Origin: Verrucomicrobiales bacterium | Lineage (GTDB): Bacteria > Verrucomicrobiota > Verrucomicrobiia > Limisphaerales > UBA9464 | Length of the DNA: 11,215 nucleotides | Reading direction: 5' to 3' | NCBI GenBank assembly: GCA_003445095.1 | Contig: DLVS01000006.1 | Coordinates: forward strand, 1-11,215 | Shown: positions 976 to 11,215 of the stretch, piece by piece | Numbering within the stretch: position 1 is the stretch's first letter | How the letters are laid out: every line of letters starts with the position of its first letter | Made by a program: the position numbers and the translations under genes | Notes under the pieces: generated by a model | Told to the model about the DNA's origin: nothing | The model's input: the letters and a program-made list of their open reading frames with translations, nothing else | Databases searched by the model: none

Positions 976-1315
976 TGAGCCGGACGGAGCGTTTATCGGG
1001 CGCTTGGTTTTCTCGTCTCGCGCAAGACCAGAGTTTTGAGCTAGACTTCTCCTCGCCATCACTATCGCTACCGCTAGGTGTCCTGCTAGCCTCGATGGGC
1101 TAGGCATCAAGGAAGGCGTCATCGAAGCGATCGAAGCGTACGGTTTTGTGAAGAAGTTTAGTTTCCCGTGGTAGCACAGATATTCCGAGTGAGTCGCCAC
1201 TACCTCACTCGCCACGGCGCGGTTTGGTCGGAATTTCGAGCGCGCAGGTCAATTCGGGTGAAATGCTGGGTTGATTCTGTCGCCCTCGGTCGCTTTGGAT
1301 TCCCTCATCCACGGA
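976..1315. other. Intergenic region with a start-less open frame and a CTAG cluster
   Basis: No convincing gene. On the + strand, 1040-1174 is open between two stops and ends like a plausible protein C-terminus (IKEGVIEAIEAYGFVKKF), but it has no ATG or GTG start and I do not recognise it, so it may be a gene remnant. Four CTAG tetramers lie within 1041-1103. The last two form a small hairpin, CTAGCC 1086-1091 with GGCTAG 1098-1103. The region should hold the promoter of the downstream kinase-regulator operon, but no clear -35/-10 pair stands out. The TTG at 1271 is an alternative kinase start. Confidence 0.4.
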
Positions 1316-3148
1316 ATGACCCGAGCCTCGCTAGCCACATGTCACCTCTGGCTGTTGACTGGCGGCCTCGCAGCGAGGCTGTTTGGATTGCCCGATGCTT
1401 GGGGCGCGTCGCTCACCGATCGCGCCGCCGGACTCCAGCTCGTCCGCCAGTGGACCGCGCTCGACGGGCTGCCGGATAACCGGGTCAAAGCCATCCTGCG
1501 CTCAAGCGATGGCCGTCTCTGGTTGGGCACCCGCGCCGGCCTGGTGCGGATGGATGCCAACCAACTGGACGTGTTCACTCCAACGAATACTCCCGAGCTG
1601 CCCAGCCTGGATGTCCAAATACTGGTGGAAGATGCCGCCGGCGCGGTATGGGCGGGCACGCCCCGAGGTGTAGTCCGCTGGCAAAACGACCGGTGGGACC
1701 GATTCGACGAGGAATCCGGGCTGCCCCATGGCTTGCTGTTTTGCATCCTTCCCGACACTCGGTCCGGCCTGTGGGTGGGTACTTTCGGCGGGCTTGCCCA
1801 GTATCACGACGGACACTGGCGATCCTTCACCGACGGCAGTGGATTGAACGACGTGCACGTCACGGCCCTCACGGAAGGTCCCGACGGACAAATCTGGATC
1901 GGCACTTATCGGAGCCTCCAGCGGTTGGATCCGGTGGCGGCAACGTTTACCGAGGTGGCGATGCCGCCGGGCGTGGAGAATCAAATGGTGCATGCGATTC
2001 ACTTCGGAGCGCTCGGCGACCCCTGGATTCTCGTTTCCGTTCGAGAGCGCGGCACCACCGATTTGTGGCATCGGTCAGCGGGAGAATGGAGGCGGGTCGA
2101 AACCAGTCATGCGGTGGTCGGCGATCAGATGCTCCTGCCGGCCTCCAGCCAAACCGGAACCTTTTGGAAGCTGTCTGCGGGTTGGGGCTTGGAGGCCTGG
2201 ACCGCAGGCGGTTCGAACCACCTGATGACCCAACCGCCCATCCCAACGGAATGGGTGTGGAGTCTGACCGAAGATCCTGACGGCAATTTGTGGGTCGGCG
2301 GCGATGGCACTGGACTTCAACTCTGGCGACGATCGGAAGACGCGGCGAATCCAGTGCCCTTTGAGAAAGCGCGCACGATGGAGGCGATGCGCGCCGAACG
2401 CAGGCAGCACCTGCGTCTGGCCGGTGGCGCGGGCCTAGCCCTCGCGGCAACGGCCCTCGCGCTGGGATGGCATTCAAGACGGTCCCGCCGCCGAGTTCGG
2501 CTCGCTCGGGAGGAAGCTACCGCCACGGAACGCAGCCGGCTGGCCCGAGACTTACACGACAGTGTCGGATCGGGATTGACTCGGATCACGTTGCTGGCCG
2601 ACCAAGCCCGCCACTCGCAGAACGGCTCCGCGTCGGAATCGCAATGGTCCTCCAATCTTTCCCAGTCCGCGCGAGACTTGGCTGAGGTCTTCCAAGATGC
2701 CTTGTGGGCGGTCAATCCTGTCGGTGCCACCCTCGACGGCCTGCTGGCTCACTTGGCAGAGGACACGCAAACCTTGGTAAACGCTGCCGGCCTCCGCTGC
2801 CGCGTGCTGTTGCCGGGGGAGGTTCCGGACCTGGCCCTTCCCGCGCCGGTTTGTCGACAGATCTTCCTCGCAGTCAAAGAGGCGCTCCACAATGCCATCA
2901 AGCACGCTTCCGCTTCGGAGATCCGCTTGGTGGCAATGGTACAGTCGAACCTGCTAGACATTCGAATCGAAGATAATGGCCTCGGAATGGGCAAAGGTTC
3001 CAGTCGCACTGAGTCCGCTGGTCGCGGGCTGACCAACATGCGAGCACGCCTGGAGGCGCTTGATGGGGAGATGCGCATCGTGGCTCGGGTAGGTGGCGGC
3101 ACCTGTGTCGAGTTCCGCCTTCCTCTACTGCCGGCGCACGCCACCTAA
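1316..3148 (+). CDS. Beta-propeller sensor histidine kinase (HisKA_3 / NarL-partner type)
   Basis: Membrane-anchored sensor kinase of about 610 residues. An N-terminal hydrophobic leader is followed by an extracytoplasmic region of repeated propeller blades. Each blade has the reg_prop pattern D-G-x-[IL]-W-[IVL]-G: DGRLWLGTRAGLVRMD, GAVWAGTPRGVV, SGLWVGTFGGLAQY, DGQIWIGTY, DGNLWVGG. One transmembrane helix follows at about 366-386. The cytoplasmic part has a HisKA_3 box (ERSRLARDLHDSVG) with phospho-acceptor His414. Next come the ATPase N box EALHNAIKH (Asn526), the G1 box EDNGLGMG (Asp553), GRGLTNMRARLEAL and GGGTCVEF. I chose ATG 1316 because it gives a signal-like N-terminus; TTG 1271 would add 15 residues. 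The regulator gene starts 4 bp after the stop, so the two form one operon. I see no Y_Y_Y domain before the membrane helix. The ligand is unknown. Confidence 0.9.
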   Translation: MTRASLATCHLWLLTGGLAARLFGLPDAWGASLTDRAAGLQLVRQWTALDGLPDNRVKAILRSSDGRLWLGTRAGLVRMDANQLDVFTPTNTPELPSLDVQILVEDAAGAVWAGTPRGVVRWQNDRWDRFDEESGLPHGLLFCILPDTRSGLWVGTFGGLAQYHDGHWRSFTDGSGLNDVHVTALTEGPDGQIWIGTYRSLQRLDPVAATFTEVAMPPGVENQMVHAIHFGALGDPWILVSVRERGTTDLWHRSAGEWRRVETSHAVVGDQMLLPASSQTGTFWKLSAGWGLEAWTAGGSNHLMTQPPIPTEWVWSLTEDPDGNLWVGGDGTGLQLWRRSEDAANPVPFEKARTMEAMRAERRQHLRLAGGAGLALAATALALGWHSRRSRRRVRLAREEATATERSRLARDLHDSVGSGLTRITLLADQARHSQNGSASESQWSSNLSQSARDLAEVFQDALWAVNPVGATLDGLLAHLAEDTQTLVNAAGLRCRVLLPGEVPDLALPAPVCRQIFLAVKEALHNAIKHASASEIRLVAMVQSNLLDIRIEDNGLGMGKGSSRTESAGRGLTNMRARLEALDGEMRIVARVGGGTCVEFRLPLLPAHAT

Positions 3149-3152
3149 ACCT

Positions 3153-3800
3153 ATGCCCGTCGCGTCCAACCAGCCCTCCCCGATCCGCGTTATGATCGTC
3201 GAAGATGATTCCGACACGCGAGGTATGTTGGCCGCCTTGTTCCGAGGTTCTCCGGGTTTCGCCTGCGACAGCGCCCATGCGACGGCTGAAAGCGCCGCCC
3301 GCCAGCTCGCCCTAGCGAGACCCGACGTCATCGTGCTCGACCTTGAGCTACCCAAACTTCCGGGCGTCACGTGGCTGGCCGATCTCAACCGACATTGGCC
3401 CGAGTTGCCGGTGTTGATCCTCACCGCTCATTCGGATCCAGCTCGTTTGTTCGCGGCCCTGGCGGCCGGCGCCTGCGGTTACCTGGTGAAACCCGTGCCA
3501 CCCGCTCGCATCCTGGAGGCAGTGGCTGAGATACATGCTGGAGGAGCCCCCATGTCCAGCGGCGTCGCGCGACTGGTGCTCGGGCGTTTCCGCGAGAAGA
3601 CCGGACACCATCTCCAAATGGAAACGCTCACCACGCGTGAGCAGGAAGTGCTGAAGCGGATCAGCCAGGGGCTGCTTCCGGAAGAAGTCGCCGTGGAACT
3701 GGGGATCAGCATGCGCACCGTCGGCAGTCATCTGCATCACATCTACGGAAAGCTGCACGTGGCCACCCGTGCCCAGGCCGTGGCTCGGTTCCTCGGGTGA
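3153..3800 (+). CDS. NarL/LuxR-family response regulator
   Basis: DNA-binding response regulator of 215 residues and the evident partner of the kinase just upstream. The receiver domain (about 11-128) shows the acidic pocket (VEDD, Asp18/Asp19), phospho-acceptor Asp63 in VIVLDLELP, the conserved Thr91 (ILTAHS) and Lys113 (YLVKPVPP). A short linker leads to a C-terminal LuxR-type helix-turn-helix (about 157-213) with LTTREQEVLKRISQG and the recognition region ISMRTVGSHLHHIYGKL. The ATG at 3153 starts the protein just before the receiver domain and 4 bp after the kinase stop. The open frame runs back to 3093, but an earlier start would overlap the kinase. HisKA_3 kinases normally pair with NarL-type regulators, which supports the operon reading. 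Target genes are not visible. Confidence 0.93.
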   Translation: MPVASNQPSPIRVMIVEDDSDTRGMLAALFRGSPGFACDSAHATAESAARQLALARPDVIVLDLELPKLPGVTWLADLNRHWPELPVLILTAHSDPARLFAALAAGACGYLVKPVPPARILEAVAEIHAGGAPMSSGVARLVLGRFREKTGHHLQMETLTTREQEVLKRISQGLLPEEVAVELGISMRTVGSHLHHIYGKLHVATRAQAVARFLG

Positions 3801-4227: not shown

Positions 4228-4644
4228 TCACGACTCTTTGATCCACGGATTGACAACCTTCACGCCGGGAAAATCCGCGACGTTGCGGGACGCAACGGCC
4301 AAACGATGCACGATGGCGGTGGCCGCAATCATACTGTCGATCGAGGGGAGCAAACGGCCAAGGGCGCGTTGCTTTTCGAAATAGTGAGCCCACGCGGACG
4401 CTTCGGTTTCCCCAAACGCCAGAATCCTTCCCGCCATCGCCGAACGAAGTTCATTGAGCCACGCGTCCAATTGGCGTCGCCGCGGTCCGCCCGGGAGTTT
4501 GACGATGCCCTTCTCAACTTCCCCCAGAGTAATGGTCGAAATGGAAAGTTCGGCATCATGAACCCCAAGCCAGTTCAGCACTTGTGCGTCCGGCGATCTC
4601 CGAACCGCTTCCGAAATAACATTGGCATCGACCAGAAAGCTCAT
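4228..4644 (-). CDS. vapC: VapC-type PIN-domain toxin (FitB-like)
   Basis: A 138-residue PIN-domain protein, the usual length for VapC toxins, which are Mg-dependent ribonucleases that cut tRNA or rRNA when their antitoxin is lost. The acidic catalytic set is present: Asp6 in FLVDANVISE, Glu42 in TLGEVEKGI, Asp103 in PSIDSMIAATAI and Asp124 in ASRNVADF. The pattern ends with VKVVNPW, as in FitB-like members. The ATG overlaps the TGA stop of the upstream antitoxin by four bases (ATGA at 4641-4644), so translation is probably coupled. No frameshift or missing residue is seen, so the toxin is probably active. The 3' end converges on the truncated toxin stump on the other strand. Confidence 0.93.
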   Translation of the reverse strand: MSFLVDANVISEAVRRSPDAQVLNWLGVHDAELSISTITLGEVEKGIVKLPGGPRRRQLDAWLNELRSAMAGRILAFGETEASAWAHYFEKQRALGRLLPSIDSMIAATAIVHRLAVASRNVADFPGVKVVNPWIKES

Positions 4645-4889
4645 AACTCAATCGATCGAGGCTGGTCGCGATCGTGTGGAATCTCGAAATCCGGCACGGG
4701 ACACCGCCGCAGAACATCCACCAGCTTTTTTCCGGGTGAAGCGCGACGGCTCCACTCGGAATAGGAGACGACCACCACGGCCTCCTTGCCATGTCGCGTA
4801 ATGACCTGCGGTTGGAGGTTCATGGCATTCTCGACGACTTGGCTCAGTTGATTTTTGGCTTCTTGAAGCTGCCACCGGTGTTTCTTCAC
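4641..4889 (-). CDS. Phd/YefM-family antitoxin
   Basis: An 82-residue antitoxin paired with the VapC toxin that follows. The N-terminal Phd/YefM fold is clear: WQLQEAKNQLSQVVENA, then PQVITRHGKEAVVVVSYSEW, the usual DNA-binding dimer core. The C-terminal tail (KLVDVLRRCP through the end) would wrap and block the toxin. The start is GTG at 4889, just before KKHRWQ, and no strong ribosome binding site precedes it. Antitoxins of this type normally bind operator palindromes near their own promoter and repress the operon, more strongly as a complex with toxin. A perfect 10-bp palindrome at 4921-4930 is a candidate site. Confidence 0.9.
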   Translation of the reverse strand: MKKHRWQLQEAKNQLSQVVENAMNLQPQVITRHGKEAVVVVSYSEWSRRASPGKKLVDVLRRCPVPDFEIPHDRDQPRSIEL

Positions 4890-9386: not shown

Positions 9387-11215
9387 ATGACCGAAATTCC
9401 CAAGGTTTACGAGCCGAAGTCCGTTGAGGAAAAGTGGTACCAGTTCTGGTTGGACCACGGATGCTTCACGGCCGATCCCGCGCGCGTTTCTTCAACTCGC
9501 CCGGCGTACTCCATTGTGATCCCACCGCCGAACGTCACCGGCGTCCTCACGCTCGGTCACGTTCTCAACAACACGATCCAGGACATCCTCGCGCGCAAGG
9601 CCCGCATGGACGGCAAAGAAGTCCTTTGGCTTCCCGGCACCGACCACGCGGGTATCGCGACTCAGAACGTCGTCGAGAAGACCTTGAAAAAGTCTGGCGA
9701 GATCAAGCATCGCGACGATTTGGGTCGCGAGGCGCTAGTCGCGAAGATCTGGGAATGGAAGGAGAAGTACGGCGGGATCATTCTCCAGCAACTTCGTGCG
9801 CTTGGGGCTTCCTGCGATTGGACCCGCACTCGATTTACGATGGATCCGGAGTATTCCCGGTGCGTCTCCAAGGTCTTCGTCGATCTCTACAAGAAGGGAC
9901 TCATCTATCGCGGCAAGCGCATGGTGAACTGGTGCCCGGCGTCGCTCACGGCGTTGTCGGACGAAGAAGTGATCATGAAGGAACAGAAGGGGTTCATGTA
10001 TCACTTTCGCGTGGAAGTGGTGGACGGAGCGCCGGCGGCCTCGCCCGCGCGTGCGGGCATTCAGCGTACCGGCACTTTCCTTACCATCGCCACGACGCGC
10101 CCAGAAACCATCCCTGCCGACACCGCCGTGGCGGTCAACCCGTCCGATCCGCGCTACACGCACCTGATCGGCAAGCACGTGATTCGCGCGTTGCCGTTGG
10201 ATGTGCCGGAGGAACAGCGCCTCATTCCGATCATCGCGGATGAACACGTGGATTTCAGTTTCGGCACGGGCGTGCTCAAGGTGACGCCGGCTCATGACAA
10301 GGCGGATTATGAAATTGGGCTGCGGCATCGGCTCCCGGTGATCGATGTTCTGACACCAGACGGGAAAATGACGGCCGAAGCCGGCGCTGATCTCGCGGGC
10401 CTTGATCGGTTCGTCGCGCGGAAGAAAGCGGCGGAGATCTTGGAGGCCGCTGGTGCGATGGAAAAGGTAGAGCCTTACACCAACAATGTGGGGTTCAGCG
10501 AGCGTGCGGATGTGCCGATTGAACCGCGGCTGAGCGAACAGTGGTTCCTGAAGTATCCGAGTGTGCAAGCCGCGCGCGCCTGCATTGCTTTGGGGAGCGC
10601 GCCCGCCTCGGGCGCTGTCGAAGGCGCCTCGCCTTCGACACCGGCGCGCGTGGAGGCGAAGTCGGCAGCGGATGACCCCACACGCCCGAGTGCGGCGGAC
10701 GAGGCGTCCACCGCAGCGCCCGAGGCGGGCGCGCCCCCCAAAGCGGAGATGCGCTTTTTCCCCGAGCGTTGGGCCAAGGTCTATGACCACTGGATGGGCG
10801 GCATCCAAGATTGGTGCATCAGCCGCCAATTGTGGTGGGGGCATCGGATTCCGGTGTGGAGACGAAAACCGTTCAAACCCGACGAATCTTGGGAGAAGTT
10901 TGGTTTACACTTTGTCGCGAGCACCGAAAAACTGACGGTTGACGAGATCGACTCTGAACGAGCCTGGTATCGTCTCGTAAAAGTTGGTGAGGATATCCAC
11001 TGGGAAGCCGTCACATACTCGGATTCTTACGCGAAGAAACTTGAGGAGTGGGGCTTCACCCAAGACCCCGACGTCCTCGACACGTGGTTCAGCTCTTGGC
11101 TCTGGCCGTTCGCCACGATGGGCTGGACTGGCGACAAGGAAACGGACGCCAAGAACGCGACTCTGAAGACGTTCTATCCGACCACCGACCTGGTCACCGG
11201 ACCCGACATCATCTT
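9387..11215 (+). CDS. valS: Valyl-tRNA synthetase (3'-partial, with in-frame insertion)
   Basis: Class I aminoacyl-tRNA synthetase that charges tRNA-Val in the cytoplasm and edits mischarged threonine. The first 609 codons are present; the KMSKS loop and tRNA-binding C-terminus lie beyond the right edge. N-terminal marks are KVYEPKSVEEKWYQFW and PPPNVTGVLTLGHVLNN, the HIGH region, here TLGH with Thr for the first His and His58 as the last. Then come LWLPGTDHAGIATQ, the editing-domain motif TTRPETIPADTAVAVN (from 236) and GTGVLKVTPAHDKADYEIG. The returning catalytic core shows DWCISRQLWWGHRIPVW (from 475) and DVLDTWFSSWLWPF. Residues 401-453 are an Ala/Pro/Ser/Glu-rich insertion encoded by a palindromic element. 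A smaller unusual stretch lies at about 214-229 before TTRPET. The frame is intact through both, so the gene is probably functional. ATG 9387 fits the family N-terminus; ATG 9372 is possible. Confidence 0.96.
   Translation, partial: MTEIPKVYEPKSVEEKWYQFWLDHGCFTADPARVSSTRPAYSIVIPPPNVTGVLTLGHVLNNTIQDILARKARMDGKEVLWLPGTDHAGIATQNVVEKTLKKSGEIKHRDDLGREALVAKIWEWKEKYGGIILQQLRALGASCDWTRTRFTMDPEYSRCVSKVFVDLYKKGLIYRGKRMVNWCPASLTALSDEEVIMKEQKGFMYHFRVEVVDGAPAASPARAGIQRTGTFLTIATTRPETIPADTAVAVNPSDPRYTHLIGKHVIRALPLDVPEEQRLIPIIADEHVDFSFGTGVLKVTPAHDKADYEIGLRHRLPVIDVLTPDGKMTAEAGADLAGLDRFVARKKAAEILEAAGAMEKVEPYTNNVGFSERADVPIEPRLSEQWFLKYPSVQAARACIALGSAPASGAVEGASPSTPARVEAKSAADDPTRPSAADEASTAAPEAGAPPKAEMRFFPERWAKVYDHWMGGIQDWCISRQLWWGHRIPVWRRKPFKPDESWEKFGLHFVASTEKLTVDEIDSERAWYRLVKVGEDIHWEAVTYSDSYAKKLEEWGFTQDPDVLDTWFSSWLWPFATMGWTGDKETDAKNATLKTFYPTTDLVTGPDII
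10043..10058. repeat. Small GC palindrome inside valS
   Basis: GCCCGC (10043-10048), GCGT, GCGGGC (10053-10058) is a perfect 6-bp hairpin. It lies in the part of valS encoding the Ala/Pro-rich stretch APAASPARAGIQRTG, which looks longer than the usual link before the TTRPET motif. It may be a second, smaller palindromic insertion or just GC-rich coding sequence. Confidence 0.35.
10587..10744. mobile_element. 158-bp palindromic element inserted in frame in valS
   Basis: The ends are 31-bp inverted repeats, 10587-10617 and 10714-10744. They match at 30 of 31 positions (the only mismatch is A at 10596), with outer ends GCTTTGGGG and CCCCAAAGC. Directly inside the left arm is a perfect 9-bp hairpin, GTCGAAGGC/GCCTTCGAC (10617-10639, loop GCCTC). 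Directly inside the right arm is TGCGGCGGACG/CGTCCACCGCA (10691-10715, one mismatch). A weaker third pairing joins 10646-10653 with 10678-10685. The whole could fold as a closed stem with two or three arms. It contains no gene of its own, so it resembles a MITE or REP-like element moved in trans. No clear target-site duplication is seen at the edges. It is read through in the valS frame as residues 401-453 without a stop. Confidence 0.8.
10617..10639. repeat. Internal 9-bp perfect hairpin of the valS element
   Basis: GTCGAAGGC (10617-10625) and GCCTTCGAC (10631-10639) enclose the five-base loop GCCTC. It is the strongest of the internal arms and abuts the left terminal repeat, sharing one base with it. 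Confidence 0.85.

Follow-up and report, generated by a model that had tools for sequence, protein, structure and literature searches.

Palindromes read in frame inside protein genes are best known from Rickettsia, and we know of no mover for those elements. The locus analyzed here raises the question of what a 158-bp palindrome is doing inside the gene of an essential enzyme, valine-tRNA ligase (ValRS), and where it came from. The window, that is, the whole stretch of DNA analyzed (11,215 nt), ends within this gene, valS, and the features discussed below are collected in Table 1. From the ATG at 9387 to the window end, the frame is open throughout and belongs to a longer open frame; the 158 bp are stop-free in it, and the sequence-only reading was therefore right that valS runs across them uninterrupted. 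The protein was assigned to ValRS by NCBIfam NF004349 over residues 6-609, where the score is 690 bits against a cut-off of 704, with the gene truncated by the window end. Alignment to the Thermus thermophilus ValRS (1gax) placed the extra residues between its residues 363 and 376, at which point the T. thermophilus enzyme has only a short linker; we take this region to be the linker after the editing domain. AlphaFold2 modeled the ValRS of the window poorly (mean pLDDT 54), and no conclusion is drawn from that model. A tRNA scan of the window found no tRNA. Elsewhere, the window carries a PIN-domain toxin and Phd/YefM antitoxin pair (4228-4889, minus strand) and a two-component regulator-propeller histidine kinase followed by a LuxR-type response regulator (1271-3800).

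Table 1. Position of the valS element and its parts in the window.
Feature	Position	Strand	Basis or remark
valS (valine--tRNA ligase), 5' part, host gene	9387..11215	+	window end cuts gene
Whole palindromic element, 158 bp, residues 401-453 of the valS frame	10587..10744	+	inverted ends, fold, absence in most relatives
Left foot, GGGAGC (four G's from 10592)	10593..10598	+	conserved in 49 arms compared
Left hairpin 1, 7 bp, loop CCT	10599..10615	+	arm comparison, covariation
Left hairpin 2, 11 bp, loop CCT	10616..10640	+	arm comparison, stem pairing
Spacer, 50 nt; place taken by RAYT gene in alaS (G002) and thrS (G027) elements	10641..10690	+	
Right hairpin 2, 11 bp, one non-Watson-Crick pair, loop CCT on minus strand	10691..10715	-	
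Right hairpin 1, 7 bp, loop CCT on minus strand	10716..10732	-	
Right foot, GGGGGC on minus strand	10733..10738	-	arm comparison

The ends of the element are inverted repeats as first described, 31 bp long with one mismatch: read as reverse complement, the last 31 bases repeat the first 31 with a single difference, at position 10. The arms as a whole (67 nt, 78% complementary) form the longest inverted repeat listed for the window. Just inside the left end, a hairpin of 9 bp had been noticed; the hairpin is present, although its stem has 11 bp and a CCT loop (10616-10640), and the second hairpin inside the right end was confirmed (10691-10715, 11 bp with one non-Watson-Crick pair). Folding against dinucleotide-shuffled controls gave -125.3 kcal/mol and a z-score of -10.05 for RNA, and a z-score of -9.19 for DNA, equaled by none of the 200 shuffles in either case. 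The element has the terminal inverted repeats, the shortness and the lack of a transposase gene of a MITE, and it also has the two inverted hairpin units of a REP/REPIN. Compared with the TIR motif GGGGWSAS, the window sequence GGGGAGCG fits at positions 1-6 and does not at the seventh. The sequences beyond 10586 and 10745, looked at for a target-site duplication, differ from each other. No second copy of 10587-10744 was found within the window, and a comparison with plasmid records gave no match.

We then surveyed the same site in relatives, keeping the best 80 of 575 ValRS matches, mostly Verrucomicrobiota by record title; the 80 readable rows are the window and 79 others, with L018 left out, whose valS also carries an insert and has a stop codon elsewhere in the gene. 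The nearest other protein is 73% identical to the window ValRS. The site holds 5 residues in 44 rows, 11 in nine and 14-78 in 27, consistent with the earlier statement that ValRS normally lacks the segment. Similarly, among the 115 readable proteins of 120 matches listed, 15 including the window have at least 16 residues there. All 27 inserts of at least 14 residues are open and in frame, for which dinucleotide shuffling gave a chance of about 10^-8.5 in rows that were preselected as open frames. Twenty-two of the 27 fold far better than their shuffles (z of -2.9 or lower), the other five (L019, L024, L027, L029, and L064) not being palindromic; control segments, 80 in all and one per gene, had a mean z of 0.2 and a minimum of -3.9. 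By eye, the 22 folding inserts fall into at least five sequence families. On a quickly built ValRS tree, with insert columns excluded and with L018 and L029 labeled empty despite their inserts, no fewer than 11 changes were needed to explain insert presence and no fewer than 21 to explain the family labels; the sister rows L001 and L002 carry different families. The valS site is thus a hotspot with turnover of palindrome families. valS was a single locus in 20 of 21 insert-bearing genomes (E 1e-60); a second, partial valS was seen in G026.

Other palindromes at this gene were also observed. A second family (GGAGCGC, two long arms) occupies the same ValRS codons in L039, L040, L041, L044, L048, L052, L002, and L007, and a third, long one (CAGCCCGGAGGGCTG ends, more than 200 bp) does so in L001, L059, and L079. 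The record of L052 is titled Klebsiella pneumoniae, its valS lies near Verrucomicrobia rows, and it is probably a metagenome bin under a wrong name. ValRS has a further insertion site, at which the 47 pattern-readable rows included nine with 39-73 residues and 37 with 12; seven of the nine long inserts are strongly palindromic as judged by eye, without a shuffle test. At this second site (after residue 213), the window itself has 13 added residues with a small GCCCGCGCGTGCGGGC hairpin (10026-10068), perhaps an insertion remnant.

These data bear on two ways in which the segment might be something other than a passively tolerated insertion. If it were an intron, an intein or a translational bypass, it would be removed or skipped and would be absent from the mature enzyme, and its ends do pair almost perfectly and would join the flanks. 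A skipped segment would need no open frame, yet all 27 inserts keep one; moreover, the Pfam scan of the window ValRS returned synthetase families only, with no splicing domain, and an Rfam scan of the whole window at gathering thresholds matched no family. We consider removal or skipping extremely unlikely. Alternatively, the hairpin or the peptide might have been co-opted by the host, for example for stability or translation of the valS mRNA, as the strong folding of the inserts and their recurrence at one site in many lineages would suggest. However, even closely related rows can carry different families, as the sisters L001 and L002 do, 53 of the 80 rows have 11 residues or fewer at the site, and a permissive loop accounts for the recurrence without any function. 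Co-option is therefore very improbable as an explanation, though slightly less so than removal.

The segment is instead very probably a transposase-less (REPIN/MITE-like) copy of a RAYT-type, IS200/IS605-related family, carried as an in-frame linker in ValRS. Used as a query, the window element matched seven of 22 relatives' genomes, with 52 matches in G019 and 26 in G020, and no match in the other 15; genomic sites are fewer than these counts since a palindrome matches both strands and valS inserts are counted. Together with the absence of the segment from most relatives, these similar copies support the original view that a MITE/REP-like element had been inserted in frame in valS. Arms of the window type bound 13 dispersed, transposase-less G019 copies of 141-148 bp and occur in six other valS inserts. 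Each arm has the foot GGGAGC, followed by a 7-bp hairpin with a mostly pyrimidine loop and, 0-1 base later, by a second hairpin of 10-11 bp with a YCY- or CCCT-like loop.

To describe this design, 49 arms were compared: 26 from the 13 G019 copies, which were selected by their end motif in 20 regions surrounding BLAST hits and include some near-duplicates; 14 from seven valS inserts; and nine from RAYT loci, which were preselected for pairing and of which only four truly flank a RAYT. The foot was GGGAGC nearly everywhere, with GGGACC in the G002 alaS element and GGGGGC at the right end of the window element. For hairpin 1, 96.9% of cells were paired (23 distinct rows), 25 double changes were counted against 8.8 in shuffles, and the covariation score was higher than in all 500 shuffles; two of the five measures, the count of pairs showing a double change and the count of pair types, did no better than shuffles (183 and 299 of 500). 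For hairpin 2, 341 of 350 positions were paired in 35 distinct stems, each taken at its best register, whereas swapping the 3' stems gave a mean of 227 and a maximum of 251. Stems that vary yet remain paired, with constant feet and loops, are as would be expected of a structure recognised as a hairpin. The earlier suggestion of selection on the fold is supported by stem covariation at the level of the family, and was not shown for the single window copy.

Furthermore, the length between the feet is 3n+2 in all seven valS inserts of the window family (two of them sisters), whereas the 13 dispersed copies fall into the classes 3n, 3n+1, and 3n+2 with seven, three, and three members; the frame thus looks filtered afterwards and not built in. 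Stop trinucleotides numbered 18 against 33.5 in shuffles for the 13 G019 copies, and 15 against 13.8 for the seven valS inserts. Since the copies are related, stop avoidance is a hint at most, contrary to a general claim of it.

The link to a transposase comes from complete elements in relatives. In G002 (L083), window-like arms flank a Y1/RAYT gene, with feet at 1504 and 2193 and the RAYT at 1624-1926. This whole element lies in frame in alaS, whose product of 1,186 residues has AlaRS domains on either side of Y1_Tnp; its middle part matched the NCBIfam REP-associated tyrosine transposase at 72.3 bits, below the cut-off of 80. Two stretches at the ends of the window element match the alaS element of G002, one of 60 nt at 83% and one of 28 nt at 93%. 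Similarly, the thrS of G027 (L143) contains a RAYT in frame with matching arms on both sides. A RAYT gene flanked by matching repeats was thus found in relatives (G002 alaS and G027 thrS) and not in the window, and the arms of the window element are the same as those of RAYT-bearing elements. Arms on both sides of the RAYT were not found in alaS of G022 and G024. The G024 alaS (L144) has an in-frame RAYT without adjoining arms, its single arm being more than 1 kb from the RAYT. The G022 alaS (L142) holds two complete RAYT-less palindromes of the window design, one of which adjoins the RAYT, and its frame is broken at the left RAYT junction, which may be a real frameshift or an assembly error. 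PF01797 matches were present in 12 of 13 and in at least 47 of 50 genomes (63 of the 80 relatives covered).

Since alaS and thrS do carry complete elements of this type in frame, the valS palindrome might be a scar: a full RAYT-bearing element that lost its transposase by internal deletion, leaving the arms and a short spacer. Against this, transposase-less units of nearly equal size (141-148 bp) are dispersed in G019, indicating that the short form moves or spreads as such, and no ValRS with an embedded RAYT occurs among the 120 long proteins listed of 1,601. We therefore regard an origin by deletion in valS as unlikely, though less so than either alternative considered above, and favor insertion of a copy that already lacked the transposase.

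We further analyzed how widely RAYT domains are embedded in essential proteins, using the RAYT part of the AlaRS L141 as a query and restricting the search to proteins between 652 and 2,075 residues long and to E values no higher than 1e-10. This search gave 1,601 long-protein matches; precomputed Pfam assignments for the 120 listed named 116 AlaRS, three MetH, and one ThrRS. By pattern, the RAYT occurs at three or more places in AlaRS, chiefly at two of them (46 and 35 of the 90 placements), and arm-like peptides flank it on both sides in 38 of the 90 readable placements among the 120 long proteins listed. Embedded relatives are up to 85% identical to the L141 RAYT among the matches listed, where RAYT-size proteins reach 75%, except for an 81% piece with an AlaRS domain. 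The HxH and Tyr motifs were retained in all eight embedded RAYTs checked.

Other repeats serve as linkers for whole or nearly whole RAYT domains lying in frame in the DinG-type helicases L147 and L148 (L148 by Pfam) and in a fragment of DnaE (L152), the start of which coincides with a contig end, so that its upstream junction lies outside the sequence. Inspection by eye adds two more hosts with such linkers, an SNF2-type helicase (L145) and ClpB (L182). In two related genomes (L184 and L185), a RAYT was also read in frame at the C terminus of a protein that, by eye, resembles a cyclase-type enzyme. Comparison of DinG L147 with L148 gave a dN/dS of 0.15 for the RAYT (184 codons), 0.19 and 0.13 for the host parts, and 0.58 for the linkers, suggesting in this one pair that the RAYT domain was conserved while the linkers drifted. 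For L141, AlphaFold2 gave a weak model (58.7 overall), of which we rely on just the difference between the RAYT block (63-81, residues 471-570) and its linkers (about 24-31); a Foldseek search with this model returned AlaRS as well as the IS200 and ISDra2 transposases (E near 3e-4), and a search of the RAYT part against PDB chains by sequence gave nothing at E 0.01. alaS was a single locus in eight of eight genomes. With the valS counts above, this indicates that the RAYT- or insert-bearing genes are the only copies, as far as the assemblies show.

From these observations, we propose the following mechanism. The window element would belong to a RAYT-type family that occurs in relatives of the window, most of which are Verrucomicrobiota going by their record titles. 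A RAYT, a Y1/HUH transposase, most likely recognises the double-hairpin arms in trans on single-stranded DNA, and may process whatever single-stranded DNA such arms bound, with or without its own gene; mobilisation in trans in this form is suggested by the REP literature (PMC3733652, PMC6006769). One copy would have entered the permissive ValRS linker after the editing domain. Insertions in essential genes presumably survive only at tolerant loops with the frame kept, and the window insert may persist because its insertion kept the frame and brought no stop codon there. Translated arms of the family would yield Ala/Pro/Ser/Gly-rich linkers; the window insert itself is probably read as an Ala/Pro/Ser-rich, flexible or disordered linker of about 50 residues in a ValRS that presumably still works.

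Inteins are mobile elements lying in frame inside essential proteins, as are the present pieces of mobile-type DNA; unlike in inteins, no splicing domain was found in either the window protein or L141. Intragenic REPs were published in 2013 by Di Nocera et al., and that report describes REPs inside tRNA synthetases of other bacteria, places most intragenic GTAG repeats in Opitutus terrae (Verrucomicrobia), and includes RAYTs flanked by long TIRs (TIRtrons) (PMC3733652). The present family resembles the REPs/REPINs and TIRtrons described there in its inverted hairpin pairs, high copy number in some relatives, RAYT association and partly intragenic location (PMC3733652). In contrast to them, the foot is GGGAGC and not the GT[AG]G of the GTAG type, each arm has two hairpins, whole RAYT-bearing units lie in frame inside essential enzymes, and one ValRS loop is reused by unrelated palindromes (PMC3733652). 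Rickettsia palindromic elements, the classic in-frame case, are likewise palindromes of about 150 bp in frame in protein genes, whereas the present ones are found in other bacteria whose relatives carry a RAYT with matching ends (PMC10969869). Relatedness of the window element was found to RAYT transposase elements carried by relatives. The embedded RAYTs keep the HxH and Tyr motifs of TnpA_REP and the IS200/IS605 Y1 HuH transposases, but here a housekeeping protein contains the transposase as one of its internal domains (PMC6006769).

JGI annotation already labels some proteins as alanyl-tRNA synthetase/REP element-mobilizing transposase RayT, and our searches of the open-licence literature yielded no account of a tRNA synthetase gene with an entire RAYT gene in frame inside it. 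As far as we found, three things are new: the double-hairpin family with the GGGAGC foot, the single ValRS loop that unrelated palindromes occupy repeatedly, and the presence in essential enzymes of complete RAYT genes lying in frame. Tentatively, and with less than even confidence, these elements may represent a class of mobile DNA suited to essential proteins, in which the hairpin ends needed for mobility double as stop-free, flexible linkers and the transposase works as an internal domain. If so, with the transposase built into a functioning tRNA synthetase or helicase, deletion or frameshift could not readily rid the host of the element; it would be the counterpart of an intein without splicing, with the window valS palindrome as its transposase-less form. 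In-frame palindromes come here with a likely transposase of the same ends, in single-locus essential genes and at large scale, so that one can test what moves them, how their targets are chosen, and what the insertion costs the enzyme. The finding further suggests a route by which transposons may add linkers and domains to core proteins.
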